From assembly GCA_009782215.1 (NCBI GenBank), contig WRKO01000004.1, positions 1 to 64,000 on the forward strand: a stretch of DNA of 64,000 nucleotides, read 5' to 3'. The notes under the pieces are model-generated. The model worked only from the letters and a program-made list of their open reading frames with translations, ran no database searches and was not told where the DNA came from. Source of the stretch: Oscillospiraceae bacterium (GTDB lineage Bacteria; Bacillota; Clostridia; Oscillospirales; UBA929). This document shows positions 23,198 through 55,314 of this stretch, piece by piece. The stretch's first letter is position 1. Each line of letters begins with the position of its first letter. The translations under genes and the position numbers were made by a program.

Positions 23198-24268
23198 ATG
23201 GAAAAAAGCCGTGAATTGATTGTCATTGTGGATGATGACATTACGAATCTGACCATCGCGAGGAAAAACCTCGCGGAGACGTATGCCGTTTTTACCGCGC
23301 CGTCGGGGAAAAAGCTCTTTTCCCTGCTGGAAAAGGTAGAGCCAGACTTGATTCTTTTGGATGTGAATATGCCGGAGATGAATGGGTATGAGGTCATACG
23401 GCAACTGAAAAACAACGAGGAGACCAAGCAAATCCCTATCATCTTCCTTACGGCCAAGGGCGGAGGCGAAAGCGAGCTGGAGGGCTTGTCGCTGGGCGCG
23501 GTTGATTATATCGTCAAGCCGTTCTCCCCGCCGCTTCTGCGTAAGCGGATTGAGCTTCATCTGCTGGTCGCCGCTCAAAAGCGGGAGCTTGTGATCCTGA
23601 ACAACCATTTGCAGGAGCTTGTGGACGCCAAGACTCAATCCGTTTTGGAATTGCAGAATACACTGCTGCACGCTATGGCCGAGCTTGTGGAATACCGCGA
23701 CGACATCACCGGCGGCCACGTTGACAGGATGCACAACTATTTGGGCGTGCTGCTGAGAGCGCTGGAACAGAAAGGCTCGTACCGCGACGAGGTGAAGTCG
23801 TGGGATATGGAGCTTGTGCTGCAATCGGCAAAGCTCCATGACGTGGGGAAGATTGCCATCCCGGACGAGATTTTGCTCAAGCCGGGGAAGCTGACGGCGG
23901 AAGAATTTGAGAAAATCAAAGAACACACGACATTCGGCGAGAAAATCATTTCCAAGGTCAAGGACAACACAACCGACCAAGCCTTTTTGGATTACGCGCG
24001 GACGTTTGTCTCCTCGCACCATGAGAAATGGGACGGGCAAGGCTACCCGCGGGGTCTGAAGGGCGAAGACATTCCGCTTTTGGGGAGAATCATGGCCATT
24101 GTTGACGTTTACGACGCGCTTGTGAGCGTACGTCCCTATAAAAGCGCGTTTTCGCACAAAGAAGCGATCGAAATCATCAAACAGAGCAGCGGAACGCATT
24201 TTGACCCCGAGCTTGTGGAAATCTTCCTCTCATGTGAAAAAGATTTTGAAAGGACGGGTGTAACGTGA
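23198..24268 (+). CDS. Response regulator with HD-GYP phosphodiesterase domain
   Basis: 356 residues from ATG 23198 (AGGAGGAAAGGCA). Receiver (1-120, Asp55 in [11 protein letters not shown]), coiled linker, then HD-GYP domain. The metal and signature residues are intact: [19 protein letters not shown] (HD and the downstream K-P-x-K/L part), HH, and the GYP loop in [16 protein letters not shown]. Such proteins hydrolyse cyclic di-GMP. The stop overlaps the GTG start of the hybrid kinase, its likely partner. Functionally it opposes the diguanylate cyclase of the tepA element. Confidence 0.93.
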
Positions 24269-27200
24269 GAGGCATACGCCTTACCGCGCTGCTATTGCTT
24301 TGCGCCGTGATTTTAGGATTCGCCGGCTGTACCAATCCGCCGGAAGCTCCTCCTTTCGACGCCGCTTCAATACAGTCGTTCCGGGACATTCCGGGCATAA
24401 CGGAGGCGGAGATTGCCGCGATAGAAACGCTTCAAGCCCGCGGCGAGCCGCTGATTTATGCCGCGTCCCGCAGCACCGAGCTGTTTGAGCGGCAGGACGG
24501 AACAATGGGCGGCTATACGGCGTTGCTCTGCATCTGGCTGAGCGAGCTGTTCGGCGTCGAGTTCCGGCCCGAAATCCAAGGTTTGGGCGCCATGCTGGAT
24601 AACTTGAGAAACGGAGGCATCAGCTTCGCCACGCTTTCCGACACCCCGGAACGCCGCCAGACCTTTTTGCTGACCGACCCCATCGCCCAGCGCTCCGTCG
24701 TCATGCTGCGCGCCGAAAACAGCCAGTCCATTGACGTTATCATCCGGGACAGGCTGCCGCGCTATGTTTTTGTGGAAAATTCCGTGGTGACGGACTTGGC
24801 CATCGAGGCGATGGTTCCAGACTCCTTTGAAAAAATCATCGTTCCAGACGAAGCCGGAGCGTATCGGGCTTTGGCGGACGGCGCCGCCGACGCCTTTATC
24901 GCAACCAACACGATGGAGGCGGCTTTTGACCATTACGGCAGCGTACATACCGAAGACTTTTTACCGCTTATCTTCCTCCCCGCGGCTATGGTGGCGGGAC
25001 ATCAAGACTATGAGCCGGTTATCAGCCTTGTAACCAAGATGCTGGAAAACGGCGCTTACGGATATCTGACCACCCTATACAAGCAGGGGTATCAGGATTA
25101 CAGGCGGCATAAATTCTCGCTTCTGCTGAACGAGGAGGAGACGGAGTATCTGCGCGACAACCGCGTAATGCCCTTCGCAACGCAGTATATGTCCTACCCC
25201 TACAGCTTCTATGACACGACTGAAGGCCGCTGGGAGGGCGTCGTCTTTGATGTGATGGACGAATTGTCGTGGCTGACCGGGCTTACCTTTGACCAAGTTA
25301 ATGACGACAGGCTGGAATTGCCCGAATTGCTGGCTTTGGTGGAGCGCGGAGAGGCTTATTTTATGCCGAATATGATTATAAGCCATGAGCGCAGGGATCG
25401 GTTCATTTTTTCGTCTCATATGTATCTGACGGATAGATTCGCGCTGCTATCCAAGCGGAATTACCCCAACATAGAGATGAACGACATTCCGTATGAACGG
25501 GTGGGGCTTGCCGGAGGGACGGCGTTTGCCGATATGTTTCATAGCTGGTTTCCGAATGCCCTGTATGCGCGGGAATACCCCACCACCGACGACGCTTTTC
25601 TGGCGCTGGACAGGGGCGAGGTTGATTTTGTCCTATCCAGCAAGAGCCGGCTTACGGCTCTGACCAATTATTATGAATACTCCGATTACAAGGCCAATTT
25701 CCTGTTTAACACCGCGTTTGAAGCCACCTTCGGCTTCAACAAGGATAAAGACGTTCTCCGCTCTATCGTCAACAAAGCGCTCCCGCTGATTGACTCTGGG
25801 AGGATTGTGGAGCAATGGGTCAGCAGAACCTATAATATCGAGATTATGCAACTGCGCGCGCAGCGCCCTTGGCTGATTGGCGCGGCTGTTCTGTCTTTTA
25901 TTGTGCTGGTTCCCATTTTGATCATGCTCGGTAAAAACCGCAGAATGGCTTCAAGGCTATTGGTGGCGGTGGACGACGCGACTGAGGCGAACAGGCTCAA
26001 GCAAACCTCCCTTAATGCCTTGGAAAGCATCCTGAACAGTATCGACGGGCAAATCTACACCACCTCTCCCGGCACCGGCAAGATCCTCTTCATCAACGAC
26101 CAGTTGAAAACTTTCTTCGGCATTGAGGGAGACTCCGCCATCGGGAGATATTGCTACGAGGTTTTCCGCGGTCTCGACAACAGGTGCAGCTTTTGCCCCT
26201 GCTTTGAGCTTGAGAAGAACCCGGACAAAACGGTGGTGTGGGAAGAATATCTGCCCGGACACAAGCGGTATATCCGCCACTCTGACCGCTACATCGACTG
26301 GCCTGACGGCAATAAAGTCCATCTGCAGCTTGCCGTTGACATGACCGAGATGGTTCACGCCAAGGAGCAGGCGGAGCAGAGCAACCGCTCAAAAAGCGCG
26401 TTCCTCGCGCATATGAGCCATGAGATACGCACCCCCATGAACGCCGTCATCGGCCTAGCGGAGCTCGCGCTTCGGGAACACAGCCTAAGCGCCGCCCGCG
26501 ACCATATCGCCTCGGTTAAGCAGGCGGGCGCCAACCTTTTGTCTATCATCAACAATATCTTAGACTTTTCAAAAATCGAGACGGGAAACCTGCGGATTAC
26601 CCCGATGAACTACTTGCTTTCCTCGCTGCTCAATGACGTTATCAGCATCACCAGAATGAAAATCATCGACACCGCCCTCCTGTTCACAGTCAATGTAGAC
26701 AGCCGTATCCCGGACGCCCTGATTGGTGACGAGCCGCGCATACGGCAGATTCTGGTCAATCTGCTGGATAACGCCACGAAGTATACCGACCGCGGATACG
26801 TATCCTTTACCGTGCGCGGGGAAACCGCCGCCGAAAACTCCGTCACCCTGACGATGGAGATTGCCGACAGCGGGAGGGGGATAAAGCAGGAGGATGTTGA
26901 CAATCTGTTCGGCGAATACATACGGGTGGATACGGACTTGAACAACGGCATTGAGGGCGTGGGGCTGGGGCTTACCATTACCAAGCGCCTTGTATCCGCG
27001 ATGGGCGGCGACATTACCGTGCAAAGCGAATACGGGAAAGGCAGCACGTTTACCGTTACGCTTCCGCAGAAAATCCATACCCCAAAAAAGCTGGCAAGCG
27101 TTGAAAACCCGCAGGATAAGCGGGCGCTTATCTATGAAACCCGTGAAATCTACGCAAAATCAATCGCCGACTCTATCGAAAATCTGGGAAGTTCCTGCGT

Positions 27201-28500
27201 CGTCGCGGCCAATGACGATGAATTGCGCGGCGCGCTGGCTGCCGAATCGTTCGACTTTATTTTCACCTCGCTCAAGCTTTACGAGCAAAGCAAGGAATTG
27301 CTTGAACCGGCCGGTACGGGGGTAAAAATCGTCCTGCTCGCCGAATTTGGCGAGACCATCCCCGTCAACGGCCCGGCGACGCTTTCCATGCCGGTATATT
27401 CCCTGTCCCTCGCCCAAATCCTAAACGGCGGGAGCGACAGGTTTTCCTACCGCGAGAGCGGTGAAGCCACCGTCCGATTTGTCGCGCCGGACGCCAAGGT
27501 TCTTGTCGTTGACGACATCAACACCAATCTGGTCGTGGCGAAGGGCTTGCTTCTGCCCTATCAACTGGATATTGATTTGCGCAACAGCGGCATCGAAGCC
27601 ATCAAAGCGGTTCAGATGAAGGATTATGACGCCGTTTTCATGGATCACAAGATGCACAAGATGGACGGCGTCGAAGCCGCAAGGCGTATACGGGAGCTGG
27701 AGGGCGGAAAAGGCAAGAATCTTCCCATTATCATGCTGACGGCCAACGCCGTTGCCGGTATGAGAGAAAAGTTCTTGGAAAGCGGTTTTGATGACTTTTT
27801 ATCGAAACCAATCAATACCGTCAAGCTGAACGAGGTCTTGGAAAGATGGATTCCCAAAGAAAAACAGCAAATACCGTTTTGGGAAAACAGCGAGCGCGGC
27901 CCCTCGGGGACGGACGATTCGCCCTTTGAGATTGAAGGGCTGAACTATCGGAAGGGCATCTCTATTTCCGGCGGGTCGCCGGATTATTACGCCGAAACGC
28001 TCGCCACCTTCCACGCGGACGCGCTTGAACGCATCCCCGCCTTGCAGGAATGTCTTGACAGCGGCGACCTCTCTTTATACGGAACCTATATCCACGCGCT
28101 GAAAAGCGCGGCCGCCGGAATCGGGGCGGACGAGCTGTCGGAAATGGCGGCGAGCTTGGAGTCGATGGCCAAGCGAGGAGACCCCGGCGCAGTCAAGATT
28201 CGCAGCGCGGGATTCATTAAAGGGCTGACGCTTATGCTTGAGCAAATCGAAACGACCATAACCGCGTACGAAAAAAAGACCGGCATCCCCGTTTCCTCCG
28301 AGATGCTGTTCAAATCTACGCTCATTGATTTGAAAATGGCCCTGATTAAGATGGACGCCGACACCATCAACCGAACGGCGGACTTGTTGCAACGGTCGTC
28401 GGGTGAAAATCACGCCACCGCTGTCAAATTGATTTGCAACAGCATATTGATGGCAGAATACGACAACGCGGCGTCTCTGATTGACGACCTTCTGCCGTAA
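24265..28500 (+). CDS. Hybrid histidine kinase with two extracytoplasmic solute-binding domains, PAS, receiver and HPt
   Basis: 1,411 residues from GTG 24265. A lipoprotein-like signal ends GFAGC (Cys about 20). Two SBP_bac_3 (PBPb) domains follow (about 55-280 and 300-535), then one membrane helix (about 536-558). The PAS domain (about 580-700) carries a Cys cluster RCSFCPC, and the HisKA box is [13 protein letters not shown] (His719). After the HATPase ([20 protein letters not shown]) comes a degenerate receiver with no proper acceptor (about 940-1060). A true receiver (Asp1127 in [10 protein letters not shown]) and an HPt (His1277 in [11 protein letters not shown]) complete it. This is the BvgS/EvgS-like plan: small-molecule binding outside, phosphorelay inside. 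It is co-transcribed with the HD-GYP regulator. Confidence 0.92.
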
Positions 28501-28502
28501 CC

Positions 28503-31500
28503 TTACGGGCCGGGAATCAACACCGGCTCGCACCCAATGCTTTGCTGCTGGCTGGAGAGCTGCATATACCTAAACCGCACTTGAACGTACCATGCCTTGT
28601 GAGCGCCGCCTCCGAGTATCAATTTAATTTCGGTATATTGACCATTATCCGGGAAAACCAGCCATTTCTCCTCTTCAAGCTTTGCCTCCGTTTCGGCGTA
28701 ACGGTATTCATAAAACCGCAACTGCTGCTTGCCGTTAAACTGTATGCCAATGCCGTCCTGAGGGTCGTTGAATCCGGGGGAGATAGCCATATCCACCGTC
28801 CAGTTTTCGGGTAGCGGCGGTTGCGGCGGCTTAAACGGATCGCCAAACCACTTGACCTCCGGGGGGACATCAGAAACATTATCGCCGCCGGTCGAATCCG
28901 CGACTACCGCGCTGGTGATGGCTCCGTCGGCGACGGTGACGGTGATGGTTGTCGGCAGGCTGGCCGCCAGACCGTCCCAGATGCCTTTGGACAGCTTGGC
29001 CGTAGCCTTCTTGCGGGCGGTTAATGGTATCGTGCCGTCATTCGTGAGGCGCGGCATTTTCCCCCATTTGCTCTTGGACGGCTGGTCGTGTTCGTTCCAA
29101 AACTCCCAGTCGCGTAATACAATCGGGTCAATCTTGCCGTTCGCCAGCTCCAAAGAGCCGCCGAAGCCCAAGGCCGCCCGCGGTACGATGTCCAGCCGCT
29201 GTGCCAGTGTGCGGGGCTTTTTGCCTGTGGGGACGGTGCGGATGGTGATGGCGGTGTTGGTCGTGATGGCGTCCGAAGCGTTAAACGGAAGCGCTTTCTC
29301 CTTGCCTTTACTTGTCGTTTCGCTCGGAGCCGGAATCCATGTCACCCCGTTGTCAAGCGAATACTCATGGGTAAGCTTCATCTTGATGGTTTCGCTCTTA
29401 TAGTCAAGCTTCAGCTTGGTCGGGTTGCCGAGGGGCGCGGGATTGATTTTGAATACCTTGCCCGCCGGGTAATAATCGCCGTCCCTATGCGCCGCGACGC
29501 TACGGAAATAGAAAGAATTCCGCTCTTTTGGCGCGTCCGATTCGGGCCGCGCTCTGATGGTATGCTCGTTTGCGCTGAGAATCTGCCAATCCGGGTTTTC
29601 CGGCAGCTTTCCGTTCTGCGATACAACCTGAACAAACTGATACGTCAAATCGGGCGCGGCGGGGTTGGGAGCCTGCTTTGACGGTTTTGTCATCAGACTC
29701 CATGTGTCCGCGCCGTAGAAAGGCGCGAGCTTTTCCGAGTTGCCCTTGGGACGCGCTTTGATGGCGGGGAATTTGATTTGCGCCCCTCCAAGGTCTTCCA
29801 CCCAAAGGGTCAGCGGCTTGTCAAACAGCTTGGACAACGCCGCGCCCGGCGTCGGAAGCTCGCCGTTTGTCCACTTCCCGCCGCCGTTGACGCTATATTT
29901 GACAGCGATAAACCCGGTGGGGAGAGAGACGGTCTCCGCCGTGAGGTTGATAGACGCCGTTACTCCCGACGGAGCCTCCGCAGGGATGATGACCGGCTCG
30001 GCGCCGGAGGGGGGCATCGGGGTGTAAGATTCAGAATTTTCCACAACAGCCTTAACAGGAACATTAGCTTTATACTGTGGATGCGCGTCAGTCCACCCGG
30101 TAGCGACGCCGTAGCGTAAGTAGCTTTGGCCGGGCCCCGATATCGCCTGCGATGCGTACCCTCCACTGATTTCTACCGGCACGTTGAGACCGCTACCCTC
30201 CGCCTTCACCACGACGGCAAAATTTAATTCCCCGACACTCAGCGGGGTCGTGAGGTTGACTGTATAGTAACCGGGGTATTGCGGGGTGAATGTCCCCTGC
30301 GCGGTTCCGTTGACAGCCTCGTTCAGCAACACGGTGCCGGAAGCGTCCCCGGCGGCGGCGTAAACGGTATGCACAGCCCCGGCGTTATGTATGTATACGA
30401 TAATCTGCGTCAGTAATCCGTCCTCGTCCGGGCAGTAGAACACATTCCCGTAATAAATGGTATTGGCGTTGGTGTTGAGCGAAGAGGTCGAGCCGAACGG
30501 GTCGTATTCATAAATGCCGCCTGTGAAGTCCGGGTCATAGCCGGTGACGGCGGCAACCGTCCTCAGTGGCGTATAGTAGGACATCCAGAAGTACCCGCCT
30601 TCGCCCCCCCACGTGGAACCCCAACTGTTTCTGACCAGCCACGCGCCGGGGCCGGACGGCTGGGTTCCCGTGAAGCTGCTACGGCTGTATTCGTCGTCCC
30701 AGCCGATAATCAGTACGTCGTGGTTGACGTCAAGGCTGGTGGTGTAATAGGATGTTCCCGTCTGGTTTGAGCCGGAGGTGGAGCCAGGGGTGTGATACCC
30801 TGCGGTGACCGCGCCGTAATCCAGCACGGCCTGTTTGATTTGGTTTTGGTAAGCGGGGGTTGAGCCGGCGGTGGCGGTGCCTGTCAAGTCCGGTATGTAC
30901 ACCATGCCCGTGACCTTCCCGGCTTTTTCCATCGCCTGTGTATCCGCCACAGGCCGGGGGGTGTTGCTGACGACATACCCGTCCGTGCTTTGAAGAACCG
31001 TGCCGCCGAGGATGCTTCGCGCGAAATACGCGCCCGCCATCTGCGCATTGCCGCCGCCGTCGTTGGGGCGGTTATACCCAAACTGGTTGCCGCCGTCCCG
31101 GCTTAGGGCGTGGCGCATATGGTTTTCGGAAAAGTACGCCCCCGTCAGAGACAGGTTGCTTAGGACATAAGCCTCCAGCGCCCCCGTGGACGCGAACGCC
31201 CAGCAGACGCCGAGACTGGATTGATTTTTAACCGGCGTGGTTCCCGTTCCGCGCGGGTCATATATCGTCTCAAAAGCAGTGCTTTCGTATAAGCCTCTGG
31301 CGGACGGCAACGGCTCCTGTGTGTAAGATATCGCCGGGGGTATATATCCTCCGGGCGCGACTCCGCCCTCCCCCGCCAGATAGGCAAGCAGCGCGGGATT
31401 GACTTCGACTGTGAGCAGAGGGTCAGTCTCCGCGCCAACCGGCGGGGCGGCGGCCGGAACCGCTGAGGTCAGCAGAATCAGCGCAAGAATAAAGCCCCAT

Positions 31501-31520
31501 ATTCTCTTAAATCTAAGCAC
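28503..31520 (-). CDS. Secreted papain-like (C1A) cysteine protease with lectin-like and novel C-terminal modules
   Basis: 1,005 residues from GTG 31520 (AAGGGGGA upstream). A signal peptide (about 1-30) is followed by a C1A domain (about 80-350). Active-site elements are visible: Gln-Cys in KNQSSLGVCWAF (Cys about 106), His in DVNHDVLIIGWDD, and Asn in VRNSWGSTWGGEGGYFWMSYY. A beta-rich region of the lectin-like type found after bacterial C1A domains follows (about 360-500). The C-terminal half (about 520-950) holds a repeat module starting INLTAETVSLP that is shared with the neighbouring LRR protein. There is no LPxTG or SLH anchor. It probably cuts proteins at the cell surface. It is convergent with the kinase gene, 2 bp apart. 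Confidence 0.87.
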   Translation of the reverse strand: MLRFKRIWGFILALILLTSAVPAAAPPVGAETDPLLTVEVNPALLAYLAGEGGVAPGGYIPPAISYTQEPLPSARGLYESTAFETIYDPRGTGTTPVKNQSSLGVCWAFASTGALEAYVLSNLSLTGAYFSENHMRHALSRDGGNQFGYNRPNDGGGNAQMAGAYFARSILGGTVLQSTDGYVVSNTPRPVADTQAMEKAGKVTGMVYIPDLTGTATAGSTPAYQNQIKQAVLDYGAVTAGYHTPGSTSGSNQTGTSYYTTSLDVNHDVLIIGWDDEYSRSSFTGTQPSGPGAWLVRNSWGSTWGGEGGYFWMSYYTPLRTVAAVTGYDPDFTGGIYEYDPFGSTSSLNTNANTIYYGNVFYCPDEDGLLTQIIVYIHNAGAVHTVYAAAGDASGTVLLNEAVNGTAQGTFTPQYPGYYTVNLTTPLSVGELNFAVVVKAEGSGLNVPVEISGGYASQAISGPGQSYLRYGVATGWTDAHPQYKANVPVKAVVENSESYTPMPPSGAEPVIIPAEAPSGVTASINLTAETVSLPTGFIAVKYSVNGGGKWTNGELPTPGAALSKLFDKPLTLWVEDLGGAQIKFPAIKARPKGNSEKLAPFYGADTWSLMTKPSKQAPNPAAPDLTYQFVQVVSQNGKLPENPDWQILSANEHTIRARPESDAPKERNSFYFRSVAAHRDGDYYPAGKVFKINPAPLGNPTKLKLDYKSETIKMKLTHEYSLDNGVTWIPAPSETTSKGKEKALPFNASDAITTNTAITIRTVPTGKKPRTLAQRLDIVPRAALGFGGSLELANGKIDPIVLRDWEFWNEHDQPSKSKWGKMPRLTNDGTIPLTARKKATAKLSKGIWDGLAASLPTTITVTVADGAITSAVVADSTGGDNVSDVPPEVKWFGDPFKPPQPPLPENWTVDMAISPGFNDPQDGIGIQFNGKQQLRFYEYRYAETEAKLEEEKWLVFPDNGQYTEIKLILGGGAHKAWYVQVRFRYMQLSSQQQSIGCEPVLIPGP

Positions 31521-31613
31521 GATGTAATCCCCCTTATGTAGTGATGGCTGCTTTTGCGTATGACAATATACGCCCATATCTATTATCGTAGAAAAGGTGC
31601 AAAAAGTAAAGAG

Positions 31614-33713
31614 CTAAAAGGCTTCGGGCAGCAGTTTTTTGCCGAAATCCTTAATCGGCGCTTGGCCTAGGTGCGGGAAAAAATGAGGGGACAGTTGTAA
31701 TACGCCCTTAACCACGCCCAGTTCATCGCCCCCCGGCGGCGTTATGGCCGGCATGGTCATCGTTTGCCGCAGGGAGGCGGGCTTTTTGCCCGTGGCCGCT
31801 TTCCAGATGGTCACGCCTGTTCCTCCGGCAATCTCTTTCGTCGCGTCCGTCACCGTATGCACAACCGTGACATCCAGCTTCGCCGTGGCCGAGCCGAGCG
31901 TTGTGCTTCCGAAGTTCACGAAATCGCCCTTTTTCAGCTTCAGCACCGGCTTGGCCGCGGTGGGTTGTTTGTAGGTCGGCGCTTTGCCCATGATGGCCGG
32001 GGAGATTTTCTGCGCCTTGCTCGCGGGGTAGTATTTCCCGCCGGCCGCGTACGCCGCCTTCCGCACCAGATAAGTCTCCTTATCGGCCTTCGTCTCCACA
32101 ATCGCCGTCCCGTCGGCGGGCATCGGCGTATAGCCGTCCGCGGGCGCCTTGGCGCCCTTCGCCAGCTTGCCGTACTCAAACCCATCCGCGCCGCTGAACG
32201 TAACCAGCGTACTCTCGTCTGTTACGCTCAACTGCCCCTTATCGACCAGCACCCAGCGGTTGTTGCTCTCCCTGTAATAAGGCGCCAACTTCCCCGGCTT
32301 CGGCACCAGCGTTTTCGCCCGCGCCTCTATCTTCGGAAACTTGATGACCTTTGTGTCGTCGATATCGGCCTCCTTGGTGAGTGGCTTGCCGCTATCATCC
32401 AACTGGTCGGAAACCCACAAATCCAAGTCCTTATTGAACAGATTGCTGACCTTCTTCTCGTCCGTCGGCAGCGCGCCCTTCTTCCACTTCTTCCCGCCGT
32501 CCACACTGTACGCCGCCACGTTGAAGCCACCCGGCAGGGTGATGGTCTCCGCCGCGAGGTTGATATGCGCGCCCTCCCTGTCGCCCGGGATGACAGTGTC
32601 CGTAACAGAGTCGCCAAACATGGCCGTCGCGGTTACATTCGCTTCGGGCATGGTAAACTTTGCCGTGGGGCTAAATTGGCTTGTGCCCTCGACAAACTGA
32701 ATGGTGTTGTAATCGTTGTGAAAGGCCCAGATCCCGAACGTAACGCCCGGGGAAGGCACGGCAGTGATGGTAACCGTCGCGCCCGGCGCGTACTCCCCGC
32801 CGCCTGTGGCGGTAATGCCTTCTTCCGCATAAACGGAGACGATGAAAGTTCCGGGCGGCAAATCTATGTACATTGCTGTAAAATCGACTGCTTTTTCCGG
32901 CATGATGAATTTCAATGGGTTGTCGTTACTTGTGTAACCTCCCACATATTCAAGCATGTTCGAATCTTCCCACCCCAAGAACCTCTTCCCCTCTGGCGGG
33001 GTATCGGCGGTGATGGTGACGATTTCGCCCGGCAAGGCTGTTGCTTTGTCCGTCGTGCCGTCGTTGACGGTGACGGCGTATCTGGGGACAGGAATCATTT
33101 CAGTGCTGTAATTGTTGTTTTGTACTGGCGTCCAAGTCGGTGTCGTCCAGCCGGTTTTGCCCTCATAATAGTAGATTTTCAAGTTGGAGTTGCCAAAATG
33201 GAACGCCTGTTCAGCGACAGAGGGGGCATTGCCCTCAAAGGTGACGCTTGTCAGACTTAAGCACTCCATAAACGCGCTGGTCTCTATGCTGGTTACACTG
33301 GCGGGTATGACTACATTGATTAAGCCGGACTTTTGGAACGCATTATAGCCAATGCTTGCCACACCATTGGGGATGGTAACACTTTTAAGGTTGGTATAAT
33401 GAATCGAATTGAAATTATTGGAAAACGATGACCCTCCTATACGGGTTATGCCGGATCCAATAACTATGGAACTTATAGTTTCAACGTGGGCTTGCCAAGG
33501 AATACTATTGTCCATCAACTGAGCTAATGTCCAGTCCGGCATCGCTCCGCTTCCGCTGATTGTCAGTACACCGGCGTCGTCCAATGACCAAGACAGGCCG
33601 GTGCCGAAAGTGCCGCCGGCAACCTCCGCAGCCGACGCGACCGGGGCGACCCCCGGGAGGAGTGCGGCGAGAATGACCGCCGTGAGGATAAGGCTCATAG
33701 CGCGTTTTTTCAT
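31614..33713 (-). CDS. Secreted BspA-like leucine-rich-repeat protein with shared C-terminal module
   Basis: 699 residues. A signal peptide ends ASA (about 29). BspA/LRR_5 repeats follow (about 50-200, e.g. ITRIGGSSFS, LKSVTIPNGVASIGYNAF, VIPASVTSIETSAF). Two divergent beta repeats (about 205-370, with FLGWED and FMPEKAVDFTAMY) come next. The C-terminal module (about 381-680) begins INLAAETITLP and has SVDGGKKWKKGALP and KFPKIEARAK, clearly homologous to the C-terminus of the adjacent protease. No sorting signal is seen. Such LRR proteins usually bind host or microbial surfaces. The start ATG follows AAGGGGGAA. Confidence 0.85.
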   Translation of the reverse strand: MKKRAMSLILTAVILAALLPGVAPVASAAEVAGGTFGTGLSWSLDDAGVLTISGSGAMPDWTLAQLMDNSIPWQAHVETISSIVIGSGITRIGGSSFSNNFNSIHYTNLKSVTIPNGVASIGYNAFQKSGLINVVIPASVTSIETSAFMECLSLTSVTFEGNAPSVAEQAFHFGNSNLKIYYYEGKTGWTTPTWTPVQNNNYSTEMIPVPRYAVTVNDGTTDKATALPGEIVTITADTPPEGKRFLGWEDSNMLEYVGGYTSNDNPLKFIMPEKAVDFTAMYIDLPPGTFIVSVYAEEGITATGGGEYAPGATVTITAVPSPGVTFGIWAFHNDYNTIQFVEGTSQFSPTAKFTMPEANVTATAMFGDSVTDTVIPGDREGAHINLAAETITLPGGFNVAAYSVDGGKKWKKGALPTDEKKVSNLFNKDLDLWVSDQLDDSGKPLTKEADIDDTKVIKFPKIEARAKTLVPKPGKLAPYYRESNNRWVLVDKGQLSVTDESTLVTFSGADGFEYGKLAKGAKAPADGYTPMPADGTAIVETKADKETYLVRKAAYAAGGKYYPASKAQKISPAIMGKAPTYKQPTAAKPVLKLKKGDFVNFGSTTLGSATAKLDVTVVHTVTDATKEIAGGTGVTIWKAATGKKPASLRQTMTMPAITPPGGDELGVVKGVLQLSPHFFPHLGQAPIKDFGKKLLPEAF

Positions 33714-33813: not shown

Positions 33814-34515
33814 TCAACTCTTTACCGAGAAACGCGATTGCCAGACGTAGTGCGTCCGGCCGGACATAACGAGGGCGAAACCGTTGTCTTTGCTCGTTTT
33901 GAGTTTTTTGCGAAGGTTGTAGATATGTGCCTTAACGGTGCGCACGTCCTCCGTCTGCAAGTCTCCCCAAATCGCCTTGTAGAGCTCCCCGGCGGTGAAG
34001 CCTTTTTCCGGTTGTTTGACGAAAAACAGGAGAAGGGCAAACTCCTTGGGTGTGAGCAGGAGGTCGCGTCCGTCGAGAACGGCTTTTTGTTTGAGCGGGT
34101 CGAGCGTCAGGGGCGGCAGGCGGATGATTTCGGGCTGCCGCCGTCTTTCCATCTCCACCCTCCGCAGGATGGCTTGGCAGCGAGCCAGCAATTCGTCCAT
34201 CCGGTAGGGCTTGGTCATATAATCGTCGCCGCCGCTTTGCAGGCCCTCAACAATCTGGCGCGGCTCGTCCCGGCAGGTGAGATACAGCACCGGGACGGTG
34301 TACAGCTCCCTTACGCGCTTGCAAAAATCCAGCCCAAGCCCGTCGGGCAGCATTACGTCTAGGATGATTAAGTCGGGCGGCTGCTCGCGCAGGCGTTCCC
34401 AGCCTTCCTTCAGGGTCTCCGCCGCGACCGTCCGATAGCCCGCGCTCTCCAGCAGTTCTTGGTTGGCGAGCATTACGTCGGTTTCGTCTTCAATCAGCAG
34501 AATGGTCTGTTTCAT
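33814..34515 (-). CDS. OmpR-family response regulator
   Basis: 233 residues. Receiver with EDETD, Asp53 in ILDVMLPDGLG and KPY lysine; winged helix (about 135-230, LTPKEFALLLFFV ... TVKAHIYNLRKKL). It overlaps the 3' end of the following-strand kinase gene by 26 bp, so it is the cognate regulator. It lies directly upstream of the LRR and protease genes on the same strand and may control them; that is inference from position. Confidence 0.92.
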   Translation of the reverse strand: MKQTILLIEDETDVMLANQELLESAGYRTVAAETLKEGWERLREQPPDLIILDVMLPDGLGLDFCKRVRELYTVPVLYLTCRDEPRQIVEGLQSGGDDYMTKPYRMDELLARCQAILRRVEMERRRQPEIIRLPPLTLDPLKQKAVLDGRDLLLTPKEFALLLFFVKQPEKGFTAGELYKAIWGDLQTEDVRTVKAHIYNLRKKLKTSKDNGFALVMSGRTHYVWQSRFSVKS

Positions 34516-36436
34516 CCGCGGCCCCTTTCTCCAGCGCGGCTTTCAGCTCAAAGGAGACCCTTGTGCCTTTGCCGCGCGCGCTTTCGATGTGTATTTCCGA
34601 ACCGTGCGCCTTGATGATTTCCCCGCAGATATGAAGCCCCAGCCCCGTCCCGGAGTTTGCCTCCCCGCCGCCGGAGTAAAAGCGCTCCTTGGCGCGGGCG
34701 CGTTCTTCCTCGTCCATTCCCCTGCCCGTGTCCTTCACGTAGAGTTCCACGCCCTGTCTGCTCGGACGCGCGCCCAGCGTCACCGTCCCGTTTTTGGTAA
34801 ACCTCACGGCGTTGTCGGTCAGGTTGACCAACACCTGCGTTATCCGTTCCCCGTCGGCCCAAACGTCCGGCAGCGCGTCCGGCAGCGCAAGGACAACCTT
34901 GTTGTGGTTTTTGTTCAGCACCGGGAAATAGGCGTCTGTCATGCCGCGAATCAGCGGCGGCAAGGCAATCCGGGCAAGGCGGCAGTTCAGCTCCGGGGCC
35001 GCCTCGTGGGCAAATTCCATAAGTTGGCTGACCATCAGGGCCATGCGTTCCGCCTCCGATTCCACCAGCTTCATTTTTTGCACGGTGTATTCATCGGGTA
35101 CCTCCGCCGTCTCGGCGCGGCGGCGGGTGAGCTGGGAATAGTTTGACATCACGGTGAGCGGCGTTTTTAGTTCATGGGAGACGTTTTGCAAAAATTCCCC
35201 TTTCAGCCTGTTGCGCTGCTCCAGCGCGGTGTTTTCCTCCGCCAGCCGCCGCTCGTTTTCCGCGGCGCGGTTGTTTACCAGATACAGCGCCAGCATTTGC
35301 GCGAAGATAAAGATGAGTATCCCCACGGTCGTCAGCTCGAAAAAGCTGATTGCGGCGGACGCGCCCAGCATATCCAATACCCCGAAAGCCATAAAAATCA
35401 TCTGCCCGCAGAACGATATGGCGTGTTCGGGTTTGAAGCGCCTGATTCCCCTGAGGACGCAGACGGAGCATATGGCCATGACCGTAAAGACAAAGACGAT
35501 GTGTACCGTTAAGTACCGCGCGGCGATTCTGACGGGGAGACTGACAATCAAAGCCGCGAAAACCGCGCTCACCGCGCCGACGATAGCCGGCACCATCTTA
35601 GGGATGCCGTACATTGACCGCGTGAACAGCGAATACAGCACGCAGATTGTCAGCAGTGTGAGGGTGGCCGCCACGAACTCAAACGGGTAATCCAGCGCGG
35701 GGAAGAAAGGATATGTAAATCCCCCGCCGCCGGACAAAAAGAAGCCCGTGACCAGCGAAATGAGCGAGAACCACAGATTGCTCCTCACGCTTGGCATAAA
35801 GATAAAGTAGCCGAAATAAAACAGCGCGCACATCCCCGCTATGACGACGGGAATCATGCGGTATACCGTGTCGCACAGAATCCGGTAGCTTGCCGTGCCG
35901 TGCGACCCTATGGTAAAGCCGGTATAGTAAGCGTCGTCGCGGACAATACCCGCAACCTGCGCCACCAGTTCAATCACGCCGTCAATCGGGCGCGCGGCGG
36001 CGGAGAACGGGGCGACGCGGTAAAAATTATGGCTCTCATCGTCTTCGTCAATCCGCCCGAAGGTTTCCGCCAGCCGCCCGTTTATGTACAAAACGGACGC
36101 GTAATTCGGGCTTAGCCCGAAAATCATATAATCTCCGTCCGGCACGGCAAAACGCACCCGCGCCGTATAGTACCGCGCTGTTTCGTCAAAGCCGCCGGGG
36201 GCAAGCCCTTCCAATTCATCCGGGAAGAGGAGTCTTCCGGGGTAAAACTCCGCGTCCCCCACGTGCGCCACCGAGGACACAAAGTCAAAGCCCGTCAGGT
36301 CGGCCAAGCCGCCCGGAGCGTGAACGGATATCCGGGGAACGGCAACATTCAGCCTGTACAGCATCGCCACAACCGAAAAGGAAAGCAGGCAGAAAAAGAC
36401 CCCCGCCGCAAACAAACGGGATTTCAATCCCGGCAT
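34490..36436 (-). CDS. Histidine kinase with 7TM (7TMR-DISM-type) sensor
   Basis: 648 residues. An N-terminal anchor (about 10-27) is followed by an extracellular beta domain (about 45-185, YYTARVRFAVPDGDYMIFGLSP, the 7TMR-DISM extracellular pattern). Seven closely spaced helices (about 190-385) and a short coil come next, then HisKA with NVSHELKTPLTV (His421) and HATPase with NLTDNAVRF and GTGLGLHICGE. DISM domains are thought to bind carbohydrate-like ligands. It is followed by its response regulator. RBS GGAGGAGG precedes ATG 36436. Confidence 0.88.
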   Translation of the reverse strand: MPGLKSRLFAAGVFFCLLSFSVVAMLYRLNVAVPRISVHAPGGLADLTGFDFVSSVAHVGDAEFYPGRLLFPDELEGLAPGGFDETARYYTARVRFAVPDGDYMIFGLSPNYASVLYINGRLAETFGRIDEDDESHNFYRVAPFSAAARPIDGVIELVAQVAGIVRDDAYYTGFTIGSHGTASYRILCDTVYRMIPVVIAGMCALFYFGYFIFMPSVRSNLWFSLISLVTGFFLSGGGGFTYPFFPALDYPFEFVAATLTLLTICVLYSLFTRSMYGIPKMVPAIVGAVSAVFAALIVSLPVRIAARYLTVHIVFVFTVMAICSVCVLRGIRRFKPEHAISFCGQMIFMAFGVLDMLGASAAISFFELTTVGILIFIFAQMLALYLVNNRAAENERRLAEENTALEQRNRLKGEFLQNVSHELKTPLTVMSNYSQLTRRRAETAEVPDEYTVQKMKLVESEAERMALMVSQLMEFAHEAAPELNCRLARIALPPLIRGMTDAYFPVLNKNHNKVVLALPDALPDVWADGERITQVLVNLTDNAVRFTKNGTVTLGARPSRQGVELYVKDTGRGMDEEERARAKERFYSGGGEANSGTGLGLHICGEIIKAHGSEIHIESARGKGTRVSFELKAALEKGAADETDHSAD

Positions 36437-53226: not shown

Positions 53227-55314
53227 ATGAAGGAGACCAAAAAAAGTCAAAACGCACAAGCCCACCTCAGCAGCGCGGCCCCAAAATTTAATCCGAAAGG
53301 AGAAAGAGAAATGAAAATCCAAAGCAACGCACAAGACCACCTCAGCGACGCGGCCACAAAAAATAATTTGAAAGGAGCAAAAACCATGAAAACCAGAAAC
53401 CACTCCCTCCGACGCGTGTTCGCGTCCGCGCTGGCCGTCACGACGGCCGCCGCCATCGTCATCGCCGGCACTTACGGCTGGTCGGCAATCTCTCAAATCG
53501 CGAAAGGCACAGCAGATGGAACCACCCAAAACGGGGGTGGCGAAAACCAAACCGGCCCCGGCGGCCGACTCCACTTCGACTTCGACCGCGAATCAGGCGC
53601 CGCCGAAGTCTACGCCGAAAACTTCGGCACGGAACCCCTCTTCGTCCGCGCACGGCTCAACGTCACGACCGACCTCGACCCCAGCGAAGTCACCTACTCC
53701 TACGGCGGCGACAAAATCTTCATGCCCACCTTCCTGAAAGACTCCACCAAGCTCTATTCCGACGTCACCGGCGACGCCATCGACCCCCTCCGCGAGGACG
53801 CGCCTGTCCCTGAGTACCCCGACTACACCGAAAACCAAACGTACACAACCACCGCCTACTACACCGACCAGACCAACGCCCTCGCGACGCACAAAGCGAA
53901 ATCCACCCTGACCGGCTCCGCCCCCGCGCCCATCGCCGATTGGGACGGCGACCCCGTTGACCGCTGGTTCCGCGACGCGGACGGCTGGTACTACTGGGGA
54001 GCGCCCCTCGAAGCCGGCGAAGCCACCTCGCTGCTGCTCAACGCCATCGAGCTCAAAGCTGACCGCGATGATTGGGAATTCGTCATCCTGCCGGAAGCGG
54101 AATTCACGACATTCGACGACGTTGCCGAGTTCACCAGCACATCCCCCGAAGCGGACAAGCTGCTGGAAGGAATTGTACCCGAAATAATCGAAAGCGGCAT
54201 GTTGGCGAAAATAGGGCGTTATGATACTTCTGGAAACACCTTCTGGCTTGCCCACGACGTTAACAGTGAGATTTTGAAACGGCAAGTGCTTACCGTCACC
54301 GTTGTTAACGAAATTGATTTGACGGACGCCGTACGTTCTTGGGACGTATCCGCAGCGAAAGACAACTCCGTCATGGCGTGGTATACCGGAACAAGCGAAA
54401 CCAATGCGCAAGGCGAGCCGATGTACAACGTTTTCCTTGGTGCGGACGGCAAAGTAAAGACCGGAGAGGACGCGAGCGGCTTATTCTCTTACTTCGACAG
54501 AGCCGTATCGATGGACGTTTGCGAACTGGATACTTCTTACGCGACCAACTTTGACTTTATGTTCTACTATGCAACAAACATCACAAGCCTTAACATAAGC
54601 GGTTGGAATACCTCGAATGTGACCACTATGGGCAACATGTTCCAAGACGCAAACAAACTCACCAGCCTAGATTTGAGCGGTTGGGATACCTCGAATGTGA
54701 CCATTATGCGGAGTTTGTTCTGGAGAGCATACGCCCTTGCAGACCTTGATTTGAGCGGTTGGGACACCTCTGATGTGACTATTATGAGCAGCATGTTCGC
54801 CGACGCGTATAGGCTTACGAGTCTTGATTTAAGCCACTTCGACACCTCCAAGGTGACCAATATGAGCAGTATGTTCTCTTCCGCAACCGACCTCGTAAGC
54901 CTCAACTTGAGTGGCTGGAACACTTCAAATGTGACCGCTATGAACAGCATGTTCAATGGGACTCGCTCCCTCGAAAGCCTTGACTTGAGACACTTCGACA
55001 CCTCGAACGTAACCACGATGATGTCTATGTTCGGCGGCACATATGGCGGCGCGAGCAAGCTCACCAGCCTTGACCTGAGTAGCTTCGACACCTCGAAGGT
55101 GACCGATATGAGCAATATGTTCCTAAAAACAACAGCCCTCAAATACCTTGACATGAGCAACGCCGTCTTCACCAGTGTCACAAGTTCGTCCAATATGTTC
55201 GCCGACAGTGGGCTGATAAGCGGCGGCGAGATAATTGTGGGAAGCGAAACGGCACGGACGTTCATCAATGGACGCTACCCCAAACCAGCCGCCACGATAA
55301 CGGTTGCCGACTAA
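53227..55314 (+). CDS. Surface protein: TasA/camelysin-like head with DUF285 (BspA-type) repeats
   Basis: The most likely start of the mature reading is ATG 53386 (GAAAGGAG upstream; 642 aa, MKTRNHSLRRVF then a signal helix). Two in-frame ATGs at 53227 and 53311 each have their own AGGAG site and precede duplicated 25-28-residue leader units. After the signal, the TasA/SipW-dependent pattern SAISQIAKGTADG, VYAENFGTEPLFVRARL suggests a beta-sandwich matrix protein (about residues 30-290 from 53386). The C-terminal part has about eight 25-residue DUF285 repeats (e.g. LDLSGWDTSNVTIMRSLF). No cell-wall anchor. TasA-like proteins need signal peptidase SipW, which is not in the window. Confidence 0.83.
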   Translation: MKETKKSQNAQAHLSSAAPKFNPKGEREMKIQSNAQDHLSDAATKNNLKGAKTMKTRNHSLRRVFASALAVTTAAAIVIAGTYGWSAISQIAKGTADGTTQNGGGENQTGPGGRLHFDFDRESGAAEVYAENFGTEPLFVRARLNVTTDLDPSEVTYSYGGDKIFMPTFLKDSTKLYSDVTGDAIDPLREDAPVPEYPDYTENQTYTTTAYYTDQTNALATHKAKSTLTGSAPAPIADWDGDPVDRWFRDADGWYYWGAPLEAGEATSLLLNAIELKADRDDWEFVILPEAEFTTFDDVAEFTSTSPEADKLLEGIVPEIIESGMLAKIGRYDTSGNTFWLAHDVNSEILKRQVLTVTVVNEIDLTDAVRSWDVSAAKDNSVMAWYTGTSETNAQGEPMYNVFLGADGKVKTGEDASGLFSYFDRAVSMDVCELDTSYATNFDFMFYYATNITSLNISGWNTSNVTTMGNMFQDANKLTSLDLSGWDTSNVTIMRSLFWRAYALADLDLSGWDTSDVTIMSSMFADAYRLTSLDLSHFDTSKVTNMSSMFSSATDLVSLNLSGWNTSNVTAMNSMFNGTRSLESLDLRHFDTSNVTTMMSMFGGTYGGASKLTSLDLSSFDTSKVTDMSNMFLKTTALKYLDMSNAVFTSVTSSSNMFADSGLISGGEIIVGSETARTFINGRYPKPAATITVAD
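53260..53388 (+). repeat. Tandem duplicated leader with repeated ribosome site and ATG
   Basis: Two imperfect copies of about 75-80 bp: about 53250-53313 and 53325-53388. Each has AACGCACAAG.CCACCTCAGC..CGCGGCC, then an A-rich stretch, (G)AAAGGAG, and an ATG. They stay in frame with each other and with the gene. Confidence 0.75.

Follow-up and report, generated by a model that had tools for sequence, protein, structure and literature searches.

The window analysed here comprises the first 64,000 nucleotides of contig WRKO01000004.1 from an Oscillospiraceae bacterium of termite-gut type (assembly GCA_009782215.1). Within it, a gene for a C1 (papain-type) protease and a gene for a leucine-rich repeat (LRR) protein lie next to a two-component system made up of a response regulator and a 7TM-type histidine kinase; the features are summarised in Table 1. 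The N-terminus of the protease is signal-peptide-like, with a hydrophobic segment starting at about residue 29. All four genes share one strand; 36 bp separate the protease gene from the LRR gene and 100 bp the LRR gene from the regulator gene, and this arrangement makes co-transcription possible. A promoter scan gave 7 promoter-like sites, each with 9 of 12 matching positions, against 2.5 in shuffled sequences, with one site in each gap.

Table 1. Positions of the genes and of their parts in the window
Feature	Residues	Position (nt)	Strand	Evidence
C1 (papain-type) protease gene, 1024 aa		28503..31577	-	ORF and translation; Peptidase_C1 E = 6e-18
Peptidase_C1 domain of the protease	107-333	30579..31259	-	Pfam PF00112
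Lectin_like domain of the protease	355-511	30045..30515	-	Pfam PF18560, E = 8e-20
Module units 1-3 in the protease	541-798	29184..29957	-	BLASTP to LRR protein, E = 2e-21; profile match
Module unit 4 in the protease	~806-905	28863..29162	-	Match to profile built from tails (own tail a seed)
Last ~119 residues of the protease, outside the module, unassigned		28506..28862	-	AlphaFold pLDDT mostly <50
LRR protein gene, 699 aa, N-terminal signal-peptide-like segment		31614..33713	-	ORF and translation
BspA-type LRR_5 region of the LRR protein	79-179	33177..33479	-	Pfam PF13306, E = 3e-16
InlB B-repeat-like stretch (Flg_new_2) of the LRR protein, better of two	292-366	32616..32840	-	Pfam PF18998
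Module units 1-3 in the LRR protein	380-660	31734..32576	-	BLASTP; profile match; AlphaFold model
39-residue tail of the LRR protein, outside the module		31617..31733	-	Missing from ~80%-identical paralogous module
Two-component system, upstream of both module genes		33814..36436	-	Pfam
Response regulator		33814..34515	-	Pfam
7TMR-DISM histidine kinase		34490..36436	-	7TMR-DISM_7TM domain, Pfam

When the two whole proteins were compared by BLASTP, residues 541-797 of the protease aligned with residues 382-654 of the LRR protein (30% identity, E = 2e-21), giving a common region about 280 residues long, hereafter called the module. The original prediction held that both proteins end with homologous stretches. 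This homology is real, and the motifs quoted for it are present in both translations, but the boundaries given in Table 1 show that the region does not extend over the whole ends of the proteins. The paralogue of the LRR-protein module that is about 80% identical to it ends at its own stop codon. The further claim that neither protein has a sorting signal held as far as it was tested: neither an LPXTG-like end with its charged tail nor a C-terminal hydrophobic segment is present in either, and no SLH domain was matched in either by Pfam at E values up to 1.

Profile searches of the module against Pfam, NCBIfam, PHROGs and PDB matched no well-described family, in keeping with its earlier description as unnamed. 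Among 31 members, Pfam, searched at E values up to 10, gave only scattered matches (BNR/Asp-box in 8, best E = 0.078; DUF4185 in 1, E = 2.5e-4), and no consistent match was obtained from PHROGs (two families, one member each, best E = 0.0028) or NCBIfam (one family in one member, E = 0.0093). The PDB sequence search returned five chance-level rows for the three-unit alignment (best E = 0.45) and nothing at E up to 1 for the four-unit alignment. A search with PF13620 was uninformative. None of the open-licence PMC papers listed for the topic described such a module. The common region is an apparently undescribed, lineage-specific family.

The AlphaFold model of the LRR-protein module (mean pLDDT 88.1, pTM 0.79) predicts a beta-sandwich for each of units 1 to 3, with a likeness to FnIII/Ig domains in units 2 and 3 at the least. 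The top eight Foldseek rows were all FnIII/Ig tandems (E = 2e-4 to 8.5e-4), but with TM-scores of only about 0.2. The best VIA-align match had a Z score of 5.3 and an rmsd of 3.1 over 73 residues of unit 3, with unit 1 barely covered, and a Z below 8 may reflect merely a common arrangement. An internal duplication of units 1 to 3 was unsupported by profile comparison (hhalign probabilities of 0.2-5.5%), so that only the predicted fold would speak for a common origin of the units. Besides this short form of three units there is a long form, in which a unit 4 follows, as it often does; a profile made from six seed tails, including that of the window protease, matches 33 of the 40 tails of at least 50 residues. 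Conservation is 91-94% at six lysine and tryptophan columns of the module, each covered by 92-97 distinct sequences.

The genome from which the window is taken has 9 module matches on 6 contigs by profile search. The module was found in 12 of 57 genomes, this one counted; in one relative, G004, 48 matches are spread over about 43 genes. In wider samples, which need not include Lachnospiraceae carriers, it was detected in 13 of 394 genomes of the order, one of them weakly (E = 4e-5), and in 2 of 391 genomes of the class, namely the genome of the window and one with a weak partial match (E = 5e-4). As judged from these matches, the module is a many-copy feature of the lineage and not a peculiarity of two neighbouring genes. 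A phage origin was also considered and rejected, as viral_contigs contained no relatives.

The two modules of the window are not each other's nearest kin. The LRR-protein module is 78-81% identical to a module on another contig of the same genome, against 30-35% to that of the neighbouring protease. In a quick tree of 96 of the 109 module proteins, chosen by length, both fell inside one branch of 19 rows, where the LRR-protein module paired with the module from the other contig (support 100) and the protease module grouped with three modules from other genomes (support 93). The idea of a joint surface machine under the 7TM system is thus unsupported, because the module occurs in many copies on 6 contigs and the LRR-protein module is closer to a copy elsewhere than to its neighbour. 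A 7TM-type kinase and a regulator lie directly upstream of a module gene at one locus (L140) of another genome; this was the single similar arrangement found in a search with the two-component system.

The position of the module was determined in the 101 distinct proteins whose 3' end is closed, a set that also takes in partial copies. In 78 of them the module, counting unit 4 where it is present, lies within 40 residues of the stop; it is near the N-terminus in 9 and internal in 14, and at least 40 residues follow it in 23, the window protease among them. For the short form, 61 of 64 C-terminal modules end 0-7 residues before the stop and 46 end 0-2 residues before it. For comparison, among 10 ORFs with SLH domains in the loci, the SLH region ends 2-9 residues before the stop in 6, is cut at the 3' end in 2 and is N-terminal in the available sequence in 2. 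A signal-peptide-like segment was recognised by a crude hydropathy rule in 96 of 103 module proteins with a closed 5' end. The module is also basic: across 100 of the 109 module proteins, chosen by length, its net charge is +4.7 per 100 aa against -4.7 for the rest of the same proteins, it is the more basic part in 99, and lysine makes up 12.6% of it against 4.2% elsewhere.

The proteins that carry the module are diverse, and include proteases, LRR and GLUG proteins, RCC1 proteins, some glycoside hydrolases and a transglutaminase-like protein. The cargo was scanned with Pfam in 94 of the 109 proteins (of the 15 omitted, 7 are truncated where a contig or locus ends; the other 8 are complete, and one of them was scanned separately). 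Among the best 25 of 35 and the best 25 of 33 families, the commonest recognisable cargo consists of GLUG, LRR, S8 protease, RCC1 and Ig-like proteins, and SLH does not appear. A profile made in this analysis, with seeds taken from the SLH sequences of the loci, likewise detected SLH in none of the 109 module proteins. We then compared the cargo of 37 pairs of modules longer than 200 residues that are at least 60% identical. No cargo similarity was detectable in 15 pairs and a stretch of less than 80 columns only in 11, while the other 11 do have at least 80 columns in common; the 78%-identical partner of the LRR-protein module has Big_5 cargo in place of LRR. The module is exchanged between unrelated cargo. 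For the proteins of loci L134 and L135, the sole similarity beyond the module starts close to the signal peptide, at residue 41, and the 'beta-helix' label of L135 comes from a match below the Pfam cut-off.

The binding of SLH domains, which hold secreted proteins on cells elsewhere, depends on CsaB pyruvylation (PMC5817068). G004, which is 99% complete, has no SLH and no CsaB match, whereas SLH matches number 3-120 in each of the remaining 15 genomes tested; CsaB is present in 18 of 20 genomes. Absence from a draft genome may be an assembly gap, because G012 (83% completeness) lacks CsaB yet has 32 SLH matches. CWB2 (PF04122) was found in none of 10 genomes, a set that includes 7 carriers of the module. 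The numbers of module and SLH matches are not anticorrelated across 16 genomes (Spearman -0.15, p = 0.58; 0.04 without G004), so that the case for a replacement of SLH/CsaB comes from one genome.

From the computed family, position, charge and cargo exchange, and from a fold that is only predicted, we infer with slightly better than even confidence that the module serves non-covalent surface retention. It probably holds its carriers on the cell surface because related bacteria place it on dozens of unrelated secreted proteins. After export, it would attach to some part of the envelope of the cell that made it, the simplest candidate being an anionic wall polymer, and would keep the cargo on the cell in the role that SLH domains with a pyruvylated polymer have elsewhere. 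The original suggestion that the module may anchor both window proteins to the wall is strengthened by its position, charge and cargo swapping, by the lack of detected SLH in the same proteins, and by the roughly 43 module genes of G004, where neither SLH nor CsaB was detected. The 23 proteins with a longer stretch beyond the module, the 11 close pairs with common cargo and the dependence of the replacement on one genome count against it.

A module with this basic charge might just as well bind acidic polymers of plant, humic or host origin. It is conceivable, if unlikely, that it tethers secreted enzymes and adhesins to plant polymers, to humic matter or to the insect gut lining and not to the producer cell. 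The carriers include MAGs with termite sample codes and one titled Sheep_Rumen, which point to fibre-rich habitats; beta-sandwiches are common in carbohydrate-binding modules; and among 40 cargo proteins of G004, a set covering part of its 48 module matches, GH43, GH28, GH95 and CBM26 were each found in one. The commonest cargo among the best 25 families per list, however, does not consist of fibre enzymes, and substrate binding leaves G004 unexplained unless its surface proteins are held otherwise. Plain spacers, too, are often built of FnIII/Ig-like sandwiches, which counts against an anchor, and the structures matched by the model are FnIII/Ig tandems of a generic kind, with low TM-scores and a best VIA-align Z of 5.3. 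The module is nevertheless improbable as a passive element of FnIII-like repeats (a stalk, spacer or stabilising cap) that binds nothing itself, as a stalk needs an anchor at the far end, yet little or nothing follows the module in most proteins; the lysine enrichment and the kept lysine and tryptophan columns also argue against it.

That the module is instead a C-terminal sorting signal for covalent attachment, perhaps by a sortase-like enzyme that recognises the conserved TGKKPAS region or uses its lysines, seems very improbable. The many short-form modules that end directly before the stop would agree with this, as would two sortases of the window genome that carry module units (one unit 3, the other unit 4). 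Such fusions, however, concern 2 of 5 sortase matches and occur only in that genome; in the other 15 genomes no sortase match lies in the same frame as any of the module matches listed, no sortase was matched in G014 (64% completeness) despite its 6 module matches, and neither window protein has an LPXTG-like end.

A surface-retention module of this kind would resemble known anchoring systems in part. Like SLH domains with a CsaB-pyruvylated polymer (PF00395, TIGR03609), it is terminal, mostly C-terminal, and found on many unrelated secreted proteins of a lineage, and non-covalent anchoring is proposed for it. The SLH fold, however, is alpha-helical, whereas the module is a predicted beta-sandwich; it has no sequence match to SLH and is multi-copy where SLH/CsaB were not found. 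The GW modules of Listeria InlB and of autolysins are C-terminal tandem modules that retain proteins on the cell; InlB binds lipoteichoic acid, and GW modules resemble SH3 domains (PMC4010754). The module shares the C-terminal tandem arrangement, but 31 copies gave no such Pfam match and the top Foldseek rows were FnIII/Ig, although an absent row does not exclude an SH3-like fold. The CWB2 triple domain of Clostridioides occurs on proteins of varied function, including proteases (PMC5817068); it is like the module in being triple and in its varied cargo, and differs in its absence from the 10 genomes. With bacterial FnIII/Ig-like repeats the module shares a probable fold class, but it is a fixed, lysine-rich block of three or four units that usually closes the chain.

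We tentatively suggest, as a possibility, that this basic three- or four-unit FnIII-like block is a further non-covalent anchor in Clostridia beside SLH and CWB2, which in one termite-gut lineage may have wholly replaced SLH/CsaB and may carry much of the surface proteome. If this is true, a cell-surface location could be predicted for many proteins of such gut bacteria whose place in the cell is unassigned. A bacterium that has lost a textbook anchoring system but still exports a large set of proteins would also be a natural experiment on anchor exchange. The module may also yield a display tag.

The C1 protease and its LRR neighbour (the window pair) are each encoded by a long minus-strand ORF. 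By Pfam, the protease has a papain-type Peptidase_C1 domain with a Lectin_like domain behind it, and the LRR protein carries a BspA-type LRR region plus two InlB B-repeat-like stretches. BLASTP aligned residues 541-797 of the protease with residues 382-654 of the LRR protein at 30% identity (E=2e-21), which bears out the original prediction that their C-terminal parts are homologous. No family covering these parts was found in Pfam or NCBIfam, and both proteins lack an LPXTG-like end. The LRR protein continues for 39 residues past the position at which a paralogous module of about 80% identity stops, an extension that looks as if a stop codon had been lost or a tail added.

AlphaFold modelling of the LRR protein's module, based on 31 sequences, gave a mean pLDDT of 88.1 and a pTM of 0.79, and we read the predicted model as three beta-sandwich units. 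The Foldseek hits of this model are FnIII/Ig tandems of a generic kind, at TM about 0.2 and a best E of 2.1e-4, and the viral library gave similar matches; VIA-align Z scores of at most 5.3, with the first unit barely covered, may mean a common arrangement only. Profile comparison saw no homology among the units. Where the chain runs at least 50 residues further, a profile built from these tails detected a fourth unit in 33 of 40 proteins, the window protease included. The protease model is mostly confident across units 1-4, but not over its final ~125 residues.

A search of the 54 contigs of the window's genome with a seven-copy profile (A1) gave 9 module matches on 6 contigs (7 full copies and 2 partial); the module is thus a many-copy element of this genome. 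Outside the window pair, the module is carried by an LRR protein of 803 aa, by a Big_5-domain protein of 925 aa on another contig than the window, by proteins of 709 aa and 1409 aa (the latter labelled subtilase-like by eye), by a fragment that lies at a contig end, and by two sortases with only the last part of the module, units 3 and 4, at the C-terminus. No sortase-module fusion occurs among the matches listed for 15 other genomes. The LRR protein's module shares 78-81% identity with that of the 925-aa protein and about 30-35% with that of the protease. A quick tree of 96 modules, with SH-aLRT as its only support measure, places both window modules inside one 19-row branch but gives them different nearest kin: the module of the 925-aa protein for that of the LRR protein (support 100), and three modules from other genomes for that of the protease (support 93).

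Locations of the genes and regions discussed
Feature	Location	Strand
Protease gene	window 28503-31577	-
LRR protein gene	window 31614-33713	-
39-residue extension	window 31617-31733	-
Paralogous module carrier	L021:5633-8410	
Hybrid sensor kinase gene	window 24265-28500	+
DUF285-repeat protein	window 53227-55314	+
Sortase with units 3 and 4	L026:6872-8074	-
Sortase with units 3 and 4	L121:2896-4245	-
Kinase-regulator-module-SLH row	L140:357-8639	
Transglutaminase-like carrier	L134:2936-5362	
Unrelated carrier	L135:2939-5059	

The module was found in 12 of 57 genomes, the window's included: each of the 6 genus members, 5 of 12 other family members and 1 of another family of the order. Wider samples gave 13 of 394 genomes for the order and 2 of 391 for the class, each including one weak match, and no relatives were found on the viral contigs searched. 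A scan of named genomes yielded 23 loci, from Oscillospiraceae MAGs and three Lachnospiraceae MAGs, one of the latter titled Sheep_Rumen. The Lachnospiraceae modules (L150, L151, L161) belong to large proteins, of which three are encoded on one contig; all three complete ones are of the long, four-unit form, and neither of two scanned singly has a Pfam match. Several Oscillospiraceae carriers are coded Nt197P3 and Th196P3, after the termites Neocapritermes taracua (Nt197) and Termes hospes (Th196) (PMC7024585), and from these relatives we infer a termite-gut-type label for the window's bacterium.

Upstream of the window pair lie genes for a kinase with a 7TMR-DISM_7TM region and a regulator with a Trans_reg_C domain (Pfam). 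The four genes share one strand, and a promoter-like site (9/12 matches) lies in each of two gaps, of 100 and 36 bp. A 7TM-type kinase and a regulator also stand directly upstream of a module gene in one other genome (L140), where an SLH-protein gene completes the row on one strand. Both arrangements are compatible with local control; they give no evidence for the joint surface machine under the 7TM system that had been proposed. Convergent to the protease gene is that of a large hybrid sensor kinase, in which two SBP_bac_3 stretches are combined with receiver and Hpt domains. The window also encodes a protein with three stretches of DUF285 repeats, outside the module match set.

The related genome G004, 99% complete and of the same genus, has 48 module matches, or about 43 module genes, because five match pairs share one frame each. 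SLH was not found in it, against 3 to 120 matches in each of the other 15 genomes searched, nor was CsaB, present in 18 of 20 genomes searched; CsaB pyruvylates the wall polymer bound by SLH, and direct SLH-peptidoglycan binding is still debated (PMC5817068). G004 has two sortase matches and no CWB2 (10 genomes tested, 7 with the module). A G004-only branch holds 21 of its 36 module rows in the tree (support 86). The simplest account of these counts is that SLH anchoring was lost and the module expanded in this lineage. This should not be over-read, because module and SLH counts across 16 genomes are not anticorrelated (rho -0.15, p=0.58; 0.04 without G004) and another genome, G012 (83% complete), in which no CsaB was found, has 32 SLH matches.

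Of the 101 proteins whose 3' end is closed, 78 have the module (unit 4 counted where present) finishing at most 40 residues before the stop, and 61 of 64 short, three-unit forms finish 0-7 residues before it. A less likely rival reading of such a terminal position would be a covalent sorting signal. By a crude rule, a signal-peptide-like segment is present in 96 of the 103 proteins whose 5' end is closed. An SLH profile made in this analysis matched none of 109 module proteins; for comparison, 6 of 10 SLH ORFs have a true C-terminal SLH. Net charge per 100 residues is +4.7 in the module and -4.7 in the rest, lysine 12.6% and 4.2%, and the module is the more basic part in 99 of 100 proteins.

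The cargo families listed include GLUG, S8, C1, LRR, RCC1, glycoside hydrolases, MACPF and the M26 N-terminal region. For the 37 module pairs that share at least 60% identity, similarity between the cargo parts is undetectable in 15, limited to fewer than 80 columns in 11 and more extensive in 11. In one genome, 96%-identical modules are carried by a transglutaminase-like protein and an unrelated protein without a Pfam match above cut-off (L134 and L135), a pair that may reflect recent module transfer or gene conversion. A module serving as a passive stalk, or binding fibre or host material, is a less likely rival reading. As a guess from its charge and from the GW modules, which hold InlB on lipoteichoic acid (PMC4010754), its ligand may be an anionic wall polymer. 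Because of its position, the export of its carriers, the lack of SLH in them and of an LPXTG-like end in the window pair, its charge and the variety of its cargo, the module is best read as probably retaining its carriers on the producing cell.
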